Below, piece after piece: positions 4,442 to 38,659 of a stretch of DNA of 64,000 nt. Source of the DNA: Pseudomonas svalbardensis (lineage in GTDB: Bacteria; Pseudomonadota; Gammaproteobacteria; Pseudomonadales; Pseudomonadaceae); assembly GCF_030053115.1 (NCBI RefSeq), contig NZ_CP125619.1, forward strand, positions 1,303,001-1,367,000. The letters run 5' to 3'. Numbering within the stretch: the first letter of the stretch is position 1; the number at the start of each line of letters is the position of its first letter. The position numbers were made by a program, and so were the translations under genes. The notes under the pieces were generated by a model, which saw only the letters and a list, made by a program, of their open reading frames with translations, was not told where the DNA came from and did not search any database.

Positions 4442-5443
4442 ATGAATGATTTACAGCTCGACGACTTCAAAACCGACGAAAACGCCGCCATGGTGTTGTT
4501 GGTGGACGATCAGGCAATGATCGGCGAGGCGGTGCGCCGCGGGTTGTCGAACGAAGCCAATATCGACTTCCACTTCTGCGCCGACCCGCACCAGGCCATC
4601 GCCCAGGCGATCCGAATCAAACCGACGGTGATCCTTCAGGATCTGGTGATGCCCGGTCTTGACGGCTTGAGCCTGGTGCGCGAGTACCGCAACCATCCGG
4701 CGACCAAGGACATCCCGATCATTGTCCTGTCGACCAAGGAAGACCCGCTGATCAAGAGCGCGGCGTTTGCGGCCGGAGCCAATGATTACCTGGTGAAGTT
4801 GCCGGACAACATCGAACTGGTGGCACGCATCCGCTATCACTCGCGTTCCTACATGACGTTGCTGCAGCGTGACGCAGCGTATCGCGCGCTGCGGGTCAGC
4901 CAGCAGCAGTTGCTCGACACCAACCTGGTGCTGCAGCGCTTGATGAACTCGGACGGCCTGACCGGGCTGTCGAACCGCCGGCATTTCGACGAATACCTGG
5001 AGCTTGAGTGGCGCCGTTCGCTGCGTGACCAGAGTCAACTGTCGCTGCTGATGATCGATGTCGACTACTTCAAATCCTACAACGACAGCTTCGGCCACCT
5101 TGAAGGCGATGAAGCCCTGCGCAAAGTGGCCACGGCGATTCGTGATGCCGGCGCGCGACCTTCGGACCTGCCGGCCCGTTATGGCGGCGAAGAGTTCGCC
5201 CTGGTGCTGCCCAATACTTCGCTGGGCGGCGCGCGACTGGTCGCGGAAAAGCTCCGCCAGACCGTTGCGGCGCTGAAGATCCCGCACATTTTCCCGGCCG
5301 AAGGTTCGAGCCTGACCATCAGCATCGGCCTTTCGACCCTAACCCCGCAACAGGGCGGCGATTGCCGCCAATTGATCTCGGCGGCGGACAAGGGGCTGTA
5401 TCTGGCGAAGAACAATGGGCGTAATCAGGTTGGGATTGAGTAA
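4442..5443 (+). CDS. wspR: Diguanylate cyclase response regulator WspR
   Basis: This 333-residue protein has an N-terminal receiver (VDDQAMIG; acceptor Asp67 in [12 protein letters not shown]), a helical linker at about residues 135-165, and a GGDEF domain with active site GGEEF at residues 248-252. An RxxD inhibitory site (RPSD) lies five residues before GGEEF, so product inhibition by cyclic-di-GMP is expected. Phosphorylation by WspE activates synthesis of cyclic-di-GMP from two GTP. A 47-base gap separates it from wspF; no terminator is visible there, so it is probably the last gene of the wsp operon. Confidence 0.96.
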
Positions 5444-5741: not shown

Positions 5742-6837
5742 ATGGAAATCAACCCGATCCTTAACAGTATCAAGGACCTGTCCGAGCGCTCCGAAACTAT
5801 TCGGGGGTATCTTTGACTACGATCAAAAGCATGAGCGTCTGACTGAAGTCAATCGCGAGCTTGAAGATCCGTCTGTCTGGAACAACCCGTCGTACGCTCA
5901 GGAGCTGGGCCGCGAGCGGTCCCTGCTGGCTCAGATCGTCGAAACCCTCGACGAAATGCACACAGGCCTGGCCGACGCCAAAGACCTGCTGCTGATGTCC
6001 GCCGAAGAAGAAGACCAGGCCGCCGTCGATGACGTCGCTGCCGAAGTCGAGCGTCTGCGCGAATCCCTGGAAAAACTCGAATTCCGTCGCATGTTCAGCG
6101 GTGAGATGGACGCCAACAACGCCTACCTGGACATCCAGGCCGGCTCCGGCGGCACCGAGGCTCAGGACTGGGCCAACATCCTGCTGCGCATGTACCTGCG
6201 CTGGGCCGACAAACGCGGTTTCGACGCGACCATCATGGAACTGTCGGCCGGTGAAGTCGCCGGGATCAAAGGCGCCACAATCCATATCAAGGGTGAATAC
6301 GCCTTCGGCTGGTTGCGTACCGAAATCGGCGTGCACCGTCTGGTGCGCAAGAGCCCGTACGACTCCGGTAACCGTCGCCACACCTCGTTCTCGGCCGTGT
6401 TCGTGTCGCCGGAAATCGATGACAACATCGAAATCGACATCAACCCGTCGGACCTGCGCATCGATACCTACCGCTCCTCCGGTGCCGGTGGTCAGCACGT
6501 AAACACCACCGACTCGGCCGTGCGTATTACGCACGTACCGACCAACACCGTGGTCAGCTGCCAGAACGAACGCTCCCAGCACGCGAACAAAGACACTGCG
6601 ATGAAAATGTTGCGGGCGCGCTTGTACGAGCAGGAAGTGCAGAAACGCAACGCCGCCTCCCAGGCCCTGGAAGACACCAAGTCGGACATCGGCTGGGGTC
6701 ACCAGATTCGCTCTTACGTGCTCGATGCGTCGCGGATCAAGGATTTGCGCACTAACATCGAACGCAGTGACTGCGACAAGGTGCTCGACGGCGACATCGA
6801 CGAATACCTGGTGGCCAGCCTGAAGCAAGGCCTGTAA
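5742..6837 (+). CDS. prfB: Peptide chain release factor 2, with programmed +1 frameshift
   Basis: Frame 0 starts at ATG 5742 and runs 24 codons to an in-frame TGA at 5814-5816 in the context GGGGGTATCTTTGAC. The rest of the protein continues in the +1 frame from GAC at 5815 to TAA at 6835-6837, giving 364 residues in all. This is the classical RF2 autoregulatory frameshift: low RF2 lets the ribosome slip at CTT TGA, helped by the internal Shine-Dalgarno-like GGGGG run. The peptidyl-hydrolysis GGQ motif is present ([15 protein letters not shown]). The stop-codon recognition tripeptide, normally SPF, reads SPY ([11 protein letters not shown]). RF2 releases peptides at UGA and UAA. lysS follows after 71 bases, a conserved pairing. 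Confidence 0.97.
5805..5817 (+). promoter_or_regulatory. prfB: Programmed +1 frameshift site of prfB
   Basis: GGGGGTATCTTTGAC holds the internal Shine-Dalgarno-like run, the slippery CTT codon and the poorly terminating TGA followed by C. Spacing matches the E. coli prfB site as known for the family. Confidence 0.96.
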
Positions 6838-6908: not shown

Positions 6909-8411
6909 ATGAGCGACCTAGAACTCGACCCGCAAGCCCTGCAACAGGAAGAAAACTCCCTGATCGCCCTGCGCAAGGAAAAGCTGGCTGCCGAGCGCGC
7001 CAAGGGCAATGCCTTCCCGAACGACTTCCGCCGCGACAACTACTGCGAAGACCTGCAGAAACAGTACGCGGACAAGACCAAGGAAGAGCTGGCAGAAGCT
7101 GCAATCCCGGTCAAGGTTGCCGGTCGTCTCATGCTCAACCGTGGCTCGTTCATGGTGATCCAGGACATGTCCGGGCGCATCCAGGTTTACGTCAACCGTA
7201 AAACCCTGTCCGAAGAAACCCTGGCCGCGGTGAAAACATGGGACCTGGGCGACATCATCGCCGCCGAAGGTACCCTGGCGCGTTCCGGCAAGGGCGACCT
7301 GTACGTCGAAATGACCAGCGTGCGCCTGCTGACCAAATCCCTGCGCCCGCTGCCGGACAAGCACCACGGCCTGACCGACACCGAATCCCGTTATCGTCAG
7401 CGTTACGTTGACCTGATCGTCAACGAAGACGTGCGCCAGACTTTCCGCGTTCGTTCGCAAGTCATCGCGCACATCCGCAGCTTCCTGATGAAGCGAGACT
7501 TCCTGGAAGTCGAAACACCGATGCTGCAAACCATTCCAGGCGGTGCAGCGGCCAAGCCGTTCGAAACACACCACAACGCCCTGGACATGGACATGTACCT
7601 GCGCATCGCGCCGGAGCTGTACCTCAAGCGTCTGGTGGTCGGTGGTTTTGAAAAAGTGTTCGAGATCAACCGCAACTTCCGTAACGAAGGCGTTTCGACT
7701 CGTCACAACCCTGAATTCACCATGTTGGAGTTCTACCAGGCTTACGCCGACTACGAAGACAACATGGACCTGACCGAAGAGCTGTTCCGCGAGCTGGCGC
7801 AGCTGGTTCTGGGCAGCACCGACGTGCCTTACGGCGACAAAGTGTTCCACTTCGGCGAACCATTCGTGCGTCTGTCGGTGTTCGACTCGATCCTCAAGTA
7901 CAACCCTGAGCTGACCGCTGACGACCTGACCGACATCGACAAGGCCCGCGCCATCGCCAAGAAGGCCGGCGCCAAGGTGCTGGGCTTCGAAGGTCTGGGC
8001 AAATTGCAGGTGATGATTTTCGAAGAGCTGGTCGAGCACAAGCTGGAGCAGCCGCACTTCATCACTCAATACCCGTTCGAAGTGTCGCCGCTGGCCCGTC
8101 GTAACGACGACAACCCGAACGTCACCGACCGTTTCGAACTGTTCATCGGTGGCCGCGAAATCGCCAACGCCTACTCCGAGTTGAACGACGCGGAAGACCA
8201 GGCCGAGCGCTTCATGGCGCAGGTGGCTGACAAGGACGCCGGCGACGACGAAGCCATGCATTACGACGCCGACTTCGTTCGCGCGCTGGAGTACGGCATG
8301 CCGCCAACGGCCGGTGAAGGTATCGGCATCGACCGTCTGGTGATGCTGTTGACCAACTCCCCGTCGATCCGCGACGTGATCCTGTTCCCGCACATGCGGC
8401 CACAAGCGTAA
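6909..8411 (+). CDS. lysS: Lysyl-tRNA synthetase (class II)
   Basis: The 500-residue length is typical for class II LysRS. An N-terminal OB-fold anticodon-binding domain (about residues 60-165, [20 protein letters not shown]) is followed by the class II catalytic core: motif 1 around [20 protein letters not shown], motif 2 [20 protein letters not shown] and motif 3 [20 protein letters not shown]. It charges tRNA-Lys with lysine using ATP in the cytoplasm. It lies 71 bases after prfB and is closed by a strong terminator, so prfB-lysS is likely one transcript. Confidence 0.98.
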
Positions 8412-34646: not shown

Positions 34647-34654
34647 GCGGTCGT

Positions 34655-34711
34655 AGGGGGCTTTCTCAACCAGTTTCGGCGCGGCGCGGAAACTGGTTGA
34701 GAAAGCCCCCT
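34655..34711. repeat. Perfect 23-bp inverted repeat between plsB and the cold-shock gene
   Basis: Arms 34655-34677 (AGGGGGCTTTCTCAACCAGT plus TTC) and 34689-34711 are exact reverse complements around an 11-base centre. It lies between divergent genes, so it is not a simple terminator of either. It could be a regulatory hairpin in the plsB leader, a small RNA terminator or a small mobile repeat. Confidence 0.85.
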
Positions 34712-34763
34712 AGTGTGCCGTATTCGCCGAAAATCGGCAAAAAAGCGCCTAAGTAAAGTTGAG

Positions 34764-34791
34764 TTGAGAGTTTTCGCGCCTGTCATATACT
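34764..34791 (+). promoter_or_regulatory. Sigma-70 promoter of the cold-shock gene
   Basis: TTGAGA (34764-34769), 16-base spacer, TATACT (34786-34791). The transcript would have a leader of about 30 bases before the ATG at 34828, with AAGAAGGGG as ribosome site region. Confidence 0.65.
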
Positions 34792-34827
34792 CGGCGGCTC
34801 AACAATAAAAAGAAGGGGTACTGTTAC

Positions 34828-35037
34828 ATGGCAACGCGCGAAACCGGCAATGTGAAGTGGTTCAACGACGCCAAGGGTTACGGCTTCATTCAGCGCGAGG
34901 ACGGGGTGGACGTGTTCGTGCATTACCGCGCGATTCGCGGCGAAGGGCACCGCTCGCTGGCTGAAGGTCAGCAGGTTGAATACGGCGTGGTGACCGGCGA
35001 GAAGGGCTTGCAGGCTGAGGATGTTGTAGGCCTGTAA
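34828..35037 (+). CDS. Cold-shock domain protein (CspA family)
   Basis: The 69-residue protein has RNP1 (KGYGFI) and RNP2 (DVFVHY) motifs in the order expected for CspA-type single-strand nucleic-acid binding proteins. The opening [15 protein letters not shown] is diagnostic. It should act as an RNA chaperone in the cytoplasm. The leader is short, without an obvious cspA-type cold thermosensor of 150 bases, so it may not be strongly cold-induced. Confidence 0.95.
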
Positions 35038-35065
35038 TCCATATATTACGGATCACCCAAAACCA

Positions 35066-35155
35066 CTGTGGGAGCGAGCTTGCTCGCGATGAGGCCCTTT
35101 CAGTCAACATCAATGTTGAATGTCAGTTCGCTATCGCGAGCAAGCTCCCCCACAG
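35066..35155. repeat. REP pair (inverted)
   Basis: TGTGGGAGCGAGCTTGCTCGCGA and TCGCGAGCAAGCTCCCCCACA around about 45 bases. Same subtype as 11276-11371. Confidence 0.9.
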
Positions 35156-35171
35156 GTTTTGTGTACAGCTT

Positions 35172-35280
35172 TTAGACAGTCTTCCAGGTGATTTCTTCTT
35201 CACCATCAGCGCTAATGCGCATCCAGCGATCCGCTGTCTCCTTACCTTCCTCCTCAACCCACGTAGCGTAATTTTCTCAC
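35172..35280 (-). pseudogene. Broken 3' end of a second copy of the small gene at 37389-37766
   Basis: On the minus strand the bases encode WVEEEGKETADRWMRISADG followed by EEEITWKTV and a stop, matching the C-terminus of the intact protein (WVEEEGEETADRWMRISADG, EEEITWKTA). Upstream of this the similarity stops within about six codons and an in-frame TGA appears. About 90 bases are shared with roughly 10 mismatches, mostly at third codon positions, so this is a diverged homologue, not a recent duplicate. No start codon or ribosome site remains. Confidence 0.85.
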
Positions 35281-35414
35281 CCTTACGTTGATGCTGGATG
35301 TTCAACCACCTGTCATATCTGACAGTAGACTGCTTTTTTTCACCAGCCTAACCTCGGCGAACATCATCTCTGAGCTCGCATTGGCGGGCGCAGGAACAGT
35401 CGGGAGTGATCGAC

Positions 35415-37331
35415 ATGTGGAGAATCATTGGCTTTTTGCTGGTGTTGACTGTGGCCGGGTGCAATTCACAAGCCATCCCATCCGACCATGAACTGCCAAC
35501 TTCCGGCCAGGCAAAGTCTTCGGTCATGGCAATACCGGTGCAGGGCGGTAGCGAGGTAGCCACTACCCAGCAAGCCACAGTGTTCAAGGTGGTCGAAGCA
35601 CCTGCCGGTGAGTTGAATGCCGACACCCTGGGCGCCAATGCCACCGTGCAGGTGCGTTACCCGACCCTGGCGACCCGCGATACCGTCGGTGTGCGACTGA
35701 CAGGCGTGGCGTTGCGTGATGCGCCGATTCAGACCGTATCTACGGTCGGCGTACTCACGTTCAGCTTGTCCAAGGCGTGGATTACCGAGAACCTCAATCG
35801 CACGGTGACCTTGACTTACACCTATAAGGTGGGCGGAGCCGGCAATCTGATCACCTCGTCACCCTTGAGCATCCGTGTGATAGGCGTTCAGGGCCAAACG
35901 GTGTTCAAGGTCGTCGAAGCACCAGCCGGCGAGTTGAACGCCAACACCTTGGGCGATAACGCAACAGTGCAGGTGCGTTACCCGACGCTGGCGGCCCGCG
36001 ATACCGTCGGTGTGCGACTGACAGGCGTGGCGTTGCGTGATGCACCGATTCAGACCGTCTCTACGGTCGGCGTACTGACGTTCAACTTGTCCAAGGCGTG
36101 GATTACCGAGAACCTCAATCGCACGGTAACCTTGACCTATACCTACAAGGTAGGGGGTGCAGGCAGCTTAATTACCTCCTCACCCTTAAGCATCCGCGTA
36201 GTGGGTGCAGCTCAGGGCCAAGCGGTGTTCAAGGTCGTGGAAGCGCCGGCCGGTCAGTTGAATGCCGACACCCTGGGCGCTAACGCCACCGTGCAGGTGA
36301 ATTACCCGACACTGGCGACCCGCGATACCGTCGGCGTGCGCCTGGCCGGCGTGACACTGCGGGATGCGCCAATCCAGACGGTATCCACGGTCGGCGTCTT
36401 AAGCTTCAGCTTGCCTAAAGCATGGATCACCGAGAACCTCAACCGCAGTGTCAACCTCACCTACACCTACAAGGTGAGCGGCGCGGGCAGTCTGATTACG
36501 TCGTCGCCGTTGGAAATCAGGATCGTTGGTTCAACAGCTCCGACCGATGGACAGCGTGTGGCGAATGAGCTTAATGCGCAGTATTCCAACACCAGCAATA
36601 CCTGTCCGGGTAATAAAGCTGCATATGAATGCAATGGCGTGCTGATCCGCACAGTGGATGATTCGACGGCGTTTCGTGCCTGGAATCCAAGCCCCGGGGC
36701 GGTCACGCTGGGTGGGGTCTCGTTCAGCTACATGAAAATCGGCATTGGTATGAATCAGCTGCAGGGCAGTCGTACCCAAGGCTTTGTACTTGAGCCGGGT
36801 CAATACTTTACGGCCAACGGAGGCTATCCCCTTCAGGTGTTGTGTTCATATCCTTATGATGGAGGCACTTTGAATCGCAGTGCTGCCGGCTGCGGTGCGG
36901 CGTCCAACTTTCCAAGCAACAGTGGCCCGTGTGCTGCGCAGGGGATCAATACACTGACGGCCTGGCGTGCACACTTTCAGCAGTATCCGGCAAACAGTAC
37001 TAACCGCTATCACCATCAATGCAGTTTCGGTCCGGATCAGGCGTCATTCGCACTCAGCCTGACCTCGCGAGAAAATCCTGCGGCAGAGCTTGCCGCTTGG
37101 CGACAGAATGAGGTGATGATCAAAACCTGGCCCCAGAACACCTCGAACCTTCCGATCAAGGCTTTCATCTACTTCAATACCGCGAGCCGAGCGGTGGGCG
37201 TCGAAGGGGCGAAGAACATCCAGAGGGACTTCCTCAAAATGACAGGCAGGCGAATTCCTGTGATTCGGGTCACGCCGAATATCACGACGGGCAATGTCTT
37301 CAGCTACTTTGGCGCAGACCAAGGAATTTAA
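35415..37331 (+). CDS. Lipoprotein with three tandem ~108-residue repeats and a halovibrin-like C-terminal domain
   Basis: The start is taken at ATG 35415 (RBS GGGAG 9-13 bases upstream; a GTG at 35406 is the alternative), giving 638 residues. The signal peptide MWRIIGFLLVLTVAGC ends at a lipobox cysteine. Residues about 54-372 hold three near-identical repeats (each with VFKVVEAPAG, NATVQV, TRDTVGVRL, AWITENLNR and LITSSPL), probably beta-sandwich domains. Residues about 375-638 are a cysteine-rich domain (NTCPGNKAAYECNGVLIRTV, WNPSPGAVTLGGVSFSYMKI, HHQCSF, LPIKAFIYF) that resembles proteins annotated as halovibrin HvnA/HvnC from memory; I cannot verify this. Likely exported to the cell surface. 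It is isolated between a broken gene copy and an unrelated conserved gene. Confidence 0.8.
   Translation: MWRIIGFLLVLTVAGCNSQAIPSDHELPTSGQAKSSVMAIPVQGGSEVATTQQATVFKVVEAPAGELNADTLGANATVQVRYPTLATRDTVGVRLTGVALRDAPIQTVSTVGVLTFSLSKAWITENLNRTVTLTYTYKVGGAGNLITSSPLSIRVIGVQGQTVFKVVEAPAGELNANTLGDNATVQVRYPTLAARDTVGVRLTGVALRDAPIQTVSTVGVLTFNLSKAWITENLNRTVTLTYTYKVGGAGSLITSSPLSIRVVGAAQGQAVFKVVEAPAGQLNADTLGANATVQVNYPTLATRDTVGVRLAGVTLRDAPIQTVSTVGVLSFSLPKAWITENLNRSVNLTYTYKVSGAGSLITSSPLEIRIVGSTAPTDGQRVANELNAQYSNTSNTCPGNKAAYECNGVLIRTVDDSTAFRAWNPSPGAVTLGGVSFSYMKIGIGMNQLQGSRTQGFVLEPGQYFTANGGYPLQVLCSYPYDGGTLNRSAAGCGAASNFPSNSGPCAAQGINTLTAWRAHFQQYPANSTNRYHHQCSFGPDQASFALSLTSRENPAAELAAWRQNEVMIKTWPQNTSNLPIKAFIYFNTASRAVGVEGAKNIQRDFLKMTGRRIPVIRVTPNITTGNVFSYFGADQGI
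35577..36531 (+). repeat. Three tandem ~322-bp repeats within the lipoprotein gene
   Basis: The unit starting GTGTTCAAGGT occurs at 35580, 35901 and 36225 (spacing 321 and 324 bases). Nucleotide identity between units is high, including many third positions, pointing to recent duplication or gene conversion and possible copy-number variation between strains. Confidence 0.92.
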
Positions 37332-37388
37332 AAGGGATTGGTACCCGATGCCATGTTCGTTCATCAACGAGCATGGCGTTTGAGGTGT

Positions 37389-37766
37389 TCAGGCAGTTTT
37401 CCAGGTGATTTCTTCTTCACCATCCGCGCTGATGCGCATCCAGCGATCCGCGGTCTCTTCACCTTCTTCCTCGACCCAGCTACCCGGTGCGCAACGCACT
37501 TCGACGTTCAGCGCGGCAAACGCTGCGCGGGCGCAGGCGATGTCGTCTTCCCACGGGGTCTGGTCGCTGTCCAGGAACAGGCTGTTCCATTTGCCCACGG
37601 CTTTCGGCAGCCAGGTGACCGACACGTTGCCGGCCTTGCACTTGTAGGTCTGGCCTTTCTGGACCCAGTCGGTGCATGGGCCCAAAGCAGTGCCGAGCCA
37701 GGCCGCGACGGCCTTGTAGTCGACGTCGGCGTCTTTCAGGTAAATCTCGATATCGGGTTGGCGCAT
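37389..37766 (-). CDS. Conserved small protein of unknown function
   Basis: The start is ATG 37766 (MRQPDIEIYLKDADVDYKAV) with GAGGAC 7 bases upstream, giving 125 residues; the open frame extends further but without a ribosome site. Soluble, acidic, with two cysteines (GPCTDW, TYKCKAG, plus ACARAAF and RCAPGS) and a conserved C-terminal VEEEGEETADRWMRISADGE. It lies upstream of rlmA-dapE in opposite order to the cold-shock gene, a neighbourhood I recall from other Pseudomonas. A second, broken C-terminus lies at 35172-35280. Confidence 0.8.
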   Translation of the reverse strand: MRQPDIEIYLKDADVDYKAVAAWLGTALGPCTDWVQKGQTYKCKAGNVSVTWLPKAVGKWNSLFLDSDQTPWEDDIACARAAFAALNVEVRCAPGSWVEEEGEETADRWMRISADGEEEITWKTA

Positions 37767-37849: not shown

Positions 37850-38659
37850 TTATTGAAGTACGAAGTAATCGTAGCGCATTGAAACAGTGACCTCGAACGG
37901 CTCGACCTGTTCGATGACCGCCGCCCGGCGTTCAGCACTGGCGCGCCAGCCGTGGGGCGTCATGGCCAACAGGTTCGCCCGGTCCTGACCACTTGCAAGC
38001 AGCAGTTTGAACTCCAGGGTTTCGCTGTGCTGCAGCGCCATGCCTTCCGGCACCAAAGCCAGATGCTTGTCGTCGGTGTATTCACGCACTTCGTCGTAAA
38101 GCCGCTCACGCAATTCCATCAGATGGCCGCTGGTCGGCCCGACTTTCATCAAGCCACCACCGGGGCTGAGCAGGCGTTTGGCTTCGTCCCAGTCCAGCGG
38201 GCTGAAGACGCTGGCGAGAAACTGACAGCTGCCGGAGGCCAACGGCACCCGCGCCATGCTGGCGATCAACCAGGTCAGCTGCGGGTTACGTTTGCAGGCG
38301 CGTTTGACGGCTTCCCGGGAGATATCCAGCGCGTAACCGTCGGCGCTCGGCAAAGCCTCGGCGATTTGCGCGGTGTAGTAACCCTCGCCACAACCGATGT
38401 CCAGCCAGCGCTGCGGTGCGTACTGAGCTGCCAGTTCGGCCAGACGCTTGGCCACCGGCGCGTAATGGCCTGCGTTCAAAAAATCGCGTCGGGCTTCGAC
38501 CATCGCCAGGTTATCCCCAGGGTCGCGGCTGTTCTTGTGCTGCACCGGCAACAGGTTCAGGTAACCCTGACGCGCACGGTCGAAACGATGCCCGGCGGGG
38601 CAGGCCACGCCGTTGTCCACCGCGTTCAGCGGTTCGCTGCAGATCGGGCAGGCCAGCAT
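37850..38659 (-). CDS. rlmA: 23S rRNA (guanine745-N1)-methyltransferase RlmA type
   Basis: The 269-residue protein starts with a zinc finger (CPICSEPL ... CPAGHRFDRARQGYLNLLPV) followed by a class I SAM methyltransferase domain (WLDIGCGEGYYTAQIAEALP, then LDISREAVKRACKR). This matches RlmA/RrmA, which methylates N1 of G745 (or the G748 type) in 23S rRNA helix 35. Its ATG shares one base with the dapE stop, so it is translated from the dapE transcript. Confidence 0.9.
   Translation of the reverse strand: MLACPICSEPLNAVDNGVACPAGHRFDRARQGYLNLLPVQHKNSRDPGDNLAMVEARRDFLNAGHYAPVAKRLAELAAQYAPQRWLDIGCGEGYYTAQIAEALPSADGYALDISREAVKRACKRNPQLTWLIASMARVPLASGSCQFLASVFSPLDWDEAKRLLSPGGGLMKVGPTSGHLMELRERLYDEVREYTDDKHLALVPEGMALQHSETLEFKLLLASGQDRANLLAMTPHGWRASAERRAAVIEQVEPFEVTVSMRYDYFVLQ

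Follow-up and report, generated by a model that had tools for sequence, protein, structure and literature searches.

This report concerns a window of 64,000 nucleotides (nt) from the genome of Pseudomonas svalbardensis (NZ_CP125619.1, GCF_030053115.1; positions 1303001-1367000 of a 6.36-Mb single contig), and within it a gene for a repeat-bearing lipoprotein with a halovibrin-like C-terminal domain, which lies beside a truncated duplicate of the 3' end of a conserved neighbour. The lipoprotein gene (35415-37331 of the window, plus strand) had been predicted by the initial annotation, and the list of open reading frames (ORFs) together with reading of the sequence bears it out: it starts with ATG, encodes 638 amino acids (aa) and carries the lipobox VAGC in its signal. 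It is the sole gene between a convergent pair, the cold-shock protein gene csp on the left border of the gap (34828-35037, plus strand; Pfam CSD, E 9e-27) and an intact small conserved gene of 125 aa on the right (37389-37766, minus strand), beyond which an rlmA-like methyltransferase gene forms the conserved right flank (37850-38659, minus strand; Pfam Zn_ribbon_RlmA, E 5e-20). The signal is followed by a stalk of three Ig-like repeats (35577-36521, plus strand, with 300-nt cores at 35577, 35898 and 36222), the repeats having been found by repeat analysis, as the annotation had supposed, and their Ig-like character in the structure model, and then by a halovibrin domain of 263 aa (36540-37328, plus strand) with R412, S436/S438, D482 and E566 as candidate active-site residues. 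Neither Pfam nor NCBIfam assigned a family above the cut-off to the lipoprotein, to its domain or to the small gene, and their weak matches were dismissed; the small gene is present in 296 of the 298 genomes of the genus.

The truncated duplicate, hereafter the scar (35171-35261, minus strand), comprises the last 28 codons and the stop codon of the small gene and lies distal to the intact copy. It forms a direct repeat with 37388-37478 in which 81 of 91 positions are identical (score 132, against 27 for the best of 200 shuffles). A broken copy had been annotated at 35172-35280; the duplication is real, while its right limit has to be moved, as homology stops at 35261. The claim of about 10 differences in 90 bases, mostly in third positions, agrees with the ten differences counted over 91 bases, seven of which fall in third codon positions, one in a first, one in a second and one in the stop codon. 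Finding at least seven of nine coding differences at third positions has a probability of 0.008 under no constraint, and eight of the ten differing states also occur among the 40 functional small genes compared. Because of these two features, another lineage's functional allele is the most likely source of the scar, which would have decayed a little since, as the sequence comparison suggests and as the annotation had held in calling it a diverged allele.

Directly after the scar follows DNA specific to the unit (35262-35309, plus strand), alike in three scarred copies (35174-35330 aligns to C16 of the relative UYIF39 at 92%), and then the palindrome CTGTCATATCTGACAG (35310-35325), which has this single match within the window. 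To the left of the scar, an imperfect hairpin resembling repetitive extragenic palindromic (REP) elements (35067-35154, inverted repeat I1) belongs to the original gap and lies outside the inserted unit, since 34711-35261 aligns at 85% to the empty site of genome G046. Between the repeats there is no ORF of at least 60 aa other than the lipoprotein gene and ORFs that overlap it or the small gene. Scans for sigma-70 promoters and terminators gave no excess over shuffles. Further left, between plsB and csp, a near-perfect 29-bp inverted repeat (34654-34712) is missing in the aligned loci of G046, G074 and G083.

Empty and filled sites in relatives

The syntenic sample was not random: it consists of the 39 loci with the best-scoring small-gene matches among the 296 genomes, and a locus lying at a contig end (L075) was left out. 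Both csp and the small gene were found in 38 of the 39 loci, the gap between them measuring 75-186 bp in 35 and 1.9-2.7 kb in three. A tblastn survey detected no second small-gene C-terminus in any of the 35 short-gap loci. The empty sites that the initial annotation had predicted between csp and the small gene thus exist in 35 of the 38 measurable relatives, and the arrangement with a syntenic lipoprotein is not one that all relatives share. The small protein matches its own genome at the two repeat places only. Across the genus (298 genomes, with its own counted in), more than one match at E 0.001 was obtained there (two) and in G178 (three) only. Compared with six relatives, the intact small gene shows 94-100% identity, and the scar shows 87-91% with five.

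The three filled loci, in UYIF39, G074 and G083, all hold genes for stalked halovibrin proteins. The halovibrin domain of the syntenic UYIF39 copy is 64% identical to that of the window and its scar is present, with two rare states in common with the window scar; the domains in G074 and G083 are 36-38% identical. Among the matches listed by E-value for 398 genomes, stalks of at least 78% identity occurred only in these three genomes and in the genome under study. The occurrence of empty sites, together with the lack of an integrase-sized ORF between the repeats, supports the earlier proposal of an insertion at the 3' end of a conserved gene without an integrase.

An ectopic copy and scars at other halovibrin genes

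A second copy in UYIF39 lies on another contig, between two LysR genes, and is 97% identical in the halovibrin domain. It aligns to 35174-37434 of the window, that is, from the scar across the gene and ~45 bp into the right-hand 3' end. In G005 the equivalent gap is occupied by 4.6 kb of different DNA. The three scars, that of the window and both of UYIF39, share their break point and are followed by ~70 bp of similar DNA. Scar and gene therefore look like one unit of common origin, the ectopic copy having another scar allele. We take the diverged end copy to belong, most plausibly, to the moving unit itself, because a truncated end accompanies the ectopic copy while the intact gene looks native.

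Similar remains were sought at 79 named halovibrin loci and 60 more from genomes of the genus, the homologues having been obtained from genome searches and one scan of genome contigs. Where a distinct halovibrin ORF was flanked by 600 bp or more in both directions, it was examined for direct repeats lying near both sides (600 bp); 15 of 176 such ORFs had them, compared with 4 of 583 among the remaining ORFs of these loci (P 3e-7). Tandem halovibrin paralogues account for seven of the 15 and gene 3' ends for six (the window, both UYIF39 copies, L131, L260 and L277); in L171 the 5' region of an aconitase-family gene is repeated, and L263 is of ambiguous type. Searching with gene ends by tblastn additionally brought up matches within paralogous genes, and these were disregarded. 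The anatomy of intact host gene, halovibrin gene and distal 3' fragment thus recurs in the window, UYIF39, L131, L260 and L277. In L260, the 3' end of a response-regulator gene (114 bp, 96% identical; 4874-4987 and 6267-6380) is repeated between two adjacent halovibrin genes.

L131 and L277 involve the same convergent gene pair, encoding a HAD hydrolase and a zinc-type oxidoreductase. The gap between these genes (L342, L341, L340) is a second site. Of the ten loci retrieved, seven, chosen once their positions had been established, have an empty gap, and G010 and G210 have a filled one; the stretch retrieved from G070 showed no HAD gene. G210 has, in order, the HAD gene, the halovibrin gene, a 3' fragment of the oxidoreductase gene, a 3' fragment of the HAD gene, additional ORFs and the oxidoreductase gene, the two fragments being joined at their broken ends with their stop codons outward. 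Such an arrangement could have arisen by one crossover in the HAD gene with a circle or fragment bearing short ends of both neighbours. G010 contains a short stretch 85% identical to the C-terminal part of the G210 halovibrin protein (7838-7957).

The halovibrin domain and its proposed display

The halovibrin-like character assigned earlier to the C-terminal domain is corroborated by matches on Serratia plasmids annotated hvnA/hvnB (HvnA/HvnB), to which the domain is 31.2% identical with 99% coverage (E 5e-31); the annotated hvnB frame spans most of the match. A protein of Aliivibrio fischeri whose N-terminus is signal-like shows 33% identity to the domain, and the window protein, with its own signal-like N-terminus and the lipobox read in its sequence, shares the exported character of the halovibrin family. 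HvnA and HvnB of Vibrio fischeri are described as secreted NAD+ glycohydrolases in the title of a work cited in PMC3843225. The window protein resembles the family in similarity over the whole domain (~31-33%) and in export and differs in that its domain is fused to a lipoprotein anchor and an Ig-like stalk of three repeats. PMC3510237 describes P. aeruginosa HvnA (PA1914) as having a putative NADase domain and, unlike the window protein, a signal peptide with a C-terminal DUF2599. In the genome under study there is a second halovibrin gene, near which a DUF2599 match holds two stop codons (L065 4104-5039 and genome positions 3004669-3004941).

The model of the domain has an ADP-ribosyltransferase fold by Foldseek comparison, so the structure check did not yield a fold unrelated to enzymes or toxins. 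The R, S, E and D residues are kept in 57-66 of 66 family members, all are present in the window copy, and the R-to-E spacing matches that of CteC (numbering from PMC10810742), a correspondence of residue conservation and spacing only. These features suggest, from sequence and model, that the lipoprotein is probably NAD-using. CteC is a ubiquitin ADP-ribosyltransferase of Chromobacterium violaceum, whose family is characterized by modification of ubiquitin Thr66; this effector comes from a pathogen that has type III systems, whereas the window protein is a lipoprotein with six conserved cysteines. A limited literature search found no paper treating halovibrin and CteC together. The stalk model has a mean pLDDT (predicted local distance difference test) of 81 and a pTM (predicted template modelling score) of 0.48, and its best Foldseek match is an ice-binding adhesin (E 3e-11, template modelling (TM) score 0.25). 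Relatives of the domain occur in 10 of 72,556 plasmid records, none covering 80% of the full protein. Phage origin was rejected, with no halovibrin match in 50,697 phage records at E 1e-5.

A shared upstream palindrome

About 90 bp 5' of the lipoprotein start codon lies the palindrome CTGTCANNNNTGACAG, kept in all five stalked halovibrin genes compared. It has 21 sites in the genome against ~0.3 expected and none for the control. With one mismatch allowed, it occurs within -300 to +100 of 48 of 177 halovibrin ORFs compared with 34 of 594 others. The 20 further genomic sites (L223-L237 except L228, and L352-L357) are mostly just upstream of genes. Among the 19 ORFs scanned downstream of other sites, 14 have no Pfam match at E 0.001, and the remaining ones encode SpvB and VRP1 domains, which are of the Tc-toxin type, a SET domain, a protein related to PhoPQ and a weak match, below the cut-off, to an Ig-like domain. 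We regard the palindrome as a candidate regulatory site, and it bears a likeness to las/lux boxes. On the Serratia plasmid pTE4 a gene annotated lasR stands directly before hvnB (L358 2070-3798), and because of this adjacency we would guess at a LuxR-type regulator.

Discussion

The reading that we favour, with a probability of roughly 0.55, is that of a single-gene cargo unit which settled in the gap between csp and the small gene and which spreads without an integrase of its own, its product being a surface lipoprotein with a halovibrin domain of ADP-ribosyltransferase fold. In this unit the scar, the palindromic site and the lipoprotein gene would stand in sequence, and the small gene's 3' end would come next. 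Conserved gene 3' ends would act as homology arms where incoming DNA pairs, the right junction, at the 3' end of the small gene, being homologous; the other end would be joined illegitimately, or the DNA may arrive as a small circle and integrate by one crossover. The new gene would in this manner settle in the gap with neither neighbour broken, leaving behind a second, truncated 3' end. The product would stand on the outer surface, its stalk presenting a cysteine-rich domain of the R-S-E type which, as sequence and model suggest, may split NAD+ or ADP-ribosylate a target outside the cell, and its gene would be one of a co-regulated set. A broader proposition, that halovibrin genes at large are integrase-free mobile cargo entering through gene 3' ends and encode CteC-type ADP-ribosyltransferases, here displayed on a stalk and controlled together with Tc-toxin-type genes by the shared palindrome, is considerably more tentative, and we lean against it in this full form.

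Several observations weigh against these readings. Once the paralogue repeats and the three loci on which the finding rests are taken out, close repeats are left at 5 of 173 halovibrin ORFs (L263 and L171 included), compared with 4 of 583 controls of unclassified type (P 0.03). When repeats at any distance up to 4 kb are counted, they are commoner in controls (36 of 154, uninspected, ORFs in csp loci) than at halovibrin loci (6 of 78, where L106 is UYIF39 again), which argues against a general excess at that distance; in this wider comparison L183 was rejected as REP-like and L120 as repeated control sites. Because of both results, the enrichment of close repeats at halovibrin genes is only modest. 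G074 and G083 carry the gene at the same site with no detectable scar, and the two rare states that the other scars have in common do not occur in the ectopic scar of UYIF39. The ectopic move may be mediated by insertion sequences (IS), since the copy is flanked by sequence which, going by its motifs, we take to resemble IS remnants. As to the domain, its identity to CteC is 12%, with a Foldseek TM of only 0.43-0.46 when normalized by query length. No sequence match to CteC was obtained that would place it in that family, and profile A1 searched against PDB sequences to E 10 listed only a chain of NADH dehydrogenase. In place of R66 and D68, which 65 of 66 members retain, the window copy carries K and G, and it may be impaired because of these replacements; D107 is N in nine of the 66.

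Ordinary homologous replacement between strains over long flanks would make the scar an inherited relic of an older donor with no present role. Among six relatives, flank identity is mostly 88-100% (for two of them 74-75% in one partly intergenic window), and the scarless genes of G074 and G083 fit this account as well; we nonetheless consider it rather unlikely, as it leaves both the origin of the scar and the scars at other loci unexplained. The domain might alternatively serve here as a binding module rather than an enzyme, for which one could adduce the low identity to CteC, the occurrence of Ig-like stalks in adhesins and the K and G at near-invariant positions. Retention of all four R, S, E and D residues speaks for catalysis instead, as does the description of the V. 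fischeri proteins as glycohydrolases in a title cited in PMC3843225, and a purely binding role appears improbable to us.

Mobility invites comparison with known systems. Integrative elements at gene 3' ends leave an intact gene, an insert and a distal 3' fragment, and the window shares with them this anatomy, the empty sites and the direct repeat; it differs in holding one cargo gene and no integrase between the repeats. A passive site-specific element, with gene 3' ends as attachment sites for an integrase acting in trans from elsewhere, would produce the same anatomy and could account for the similar sizes of the 3' fragments, ~91-162 bp. The interval between the repeats holds only the lipoprotein ORF, itself without an integrase family match in Pfam or NCBIfam, and overlapping ORFs of less than 175 aa (only this interval was searched, not integrases elsewhere or a common 3'-end motif). 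Moreover, the oxidoreductase fragment in L131 ends before the stop codon, and the ectopic UYIF39 copy sits between two LysR genes beside IS-like remnants, so that we hold such an element to be quite improbable. Had the end of the small gene first been duplicated locally in tandem and the lipoprotein gene been inserted later by an unrelated event, the two ends would likewise stand in direct order, but this course of events is already disfavoured, to the point of being very improbable, by the shared break point and following DNA of the three scarred copies, by the scar of the ectopic copy, and by the finding that 0 of 298 genomes have a second small-gene match (E 0.001) without the lipoprotein gene.

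For integrase-free spread of the unit, a close parallel is found in the effector-immunity insertions of the type VI secretion system (T6SS) of V. cholerae, for which homology-facilitated illegitimate recombination has been proposed, a process cited there for Pseudomonas stutzeri and noted as rare (PMC5361080). There, too, cargo lies beside conserved sequence and parts of displaced genes remain, although the V. cholerae cargo replaces an effector in a T6SS cluster, whereas the window cargo lies in gaps between unrelated core genes.

The interpretation given in the initial annotation was largely right; new here are the empty sites, the ectopic scarred copy, the scars at three other halovibrin genes, the fold assignment and the candidate regulatory site. 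Many strain-specific bacterial genes sit in integrase-free hotspots, and their entry route is rarely visible. If our reading is true, the truncated gene ends beside halovibrin genes are readable traces of entry into such hotspots. The fold match would assign a structural class, with candidate catalytic residues named, to a family described as secreted NAD glycohydrolases, and through the palindrome shared upstream the halovibrin genes would join a set with genes of the Tc-toxin type.
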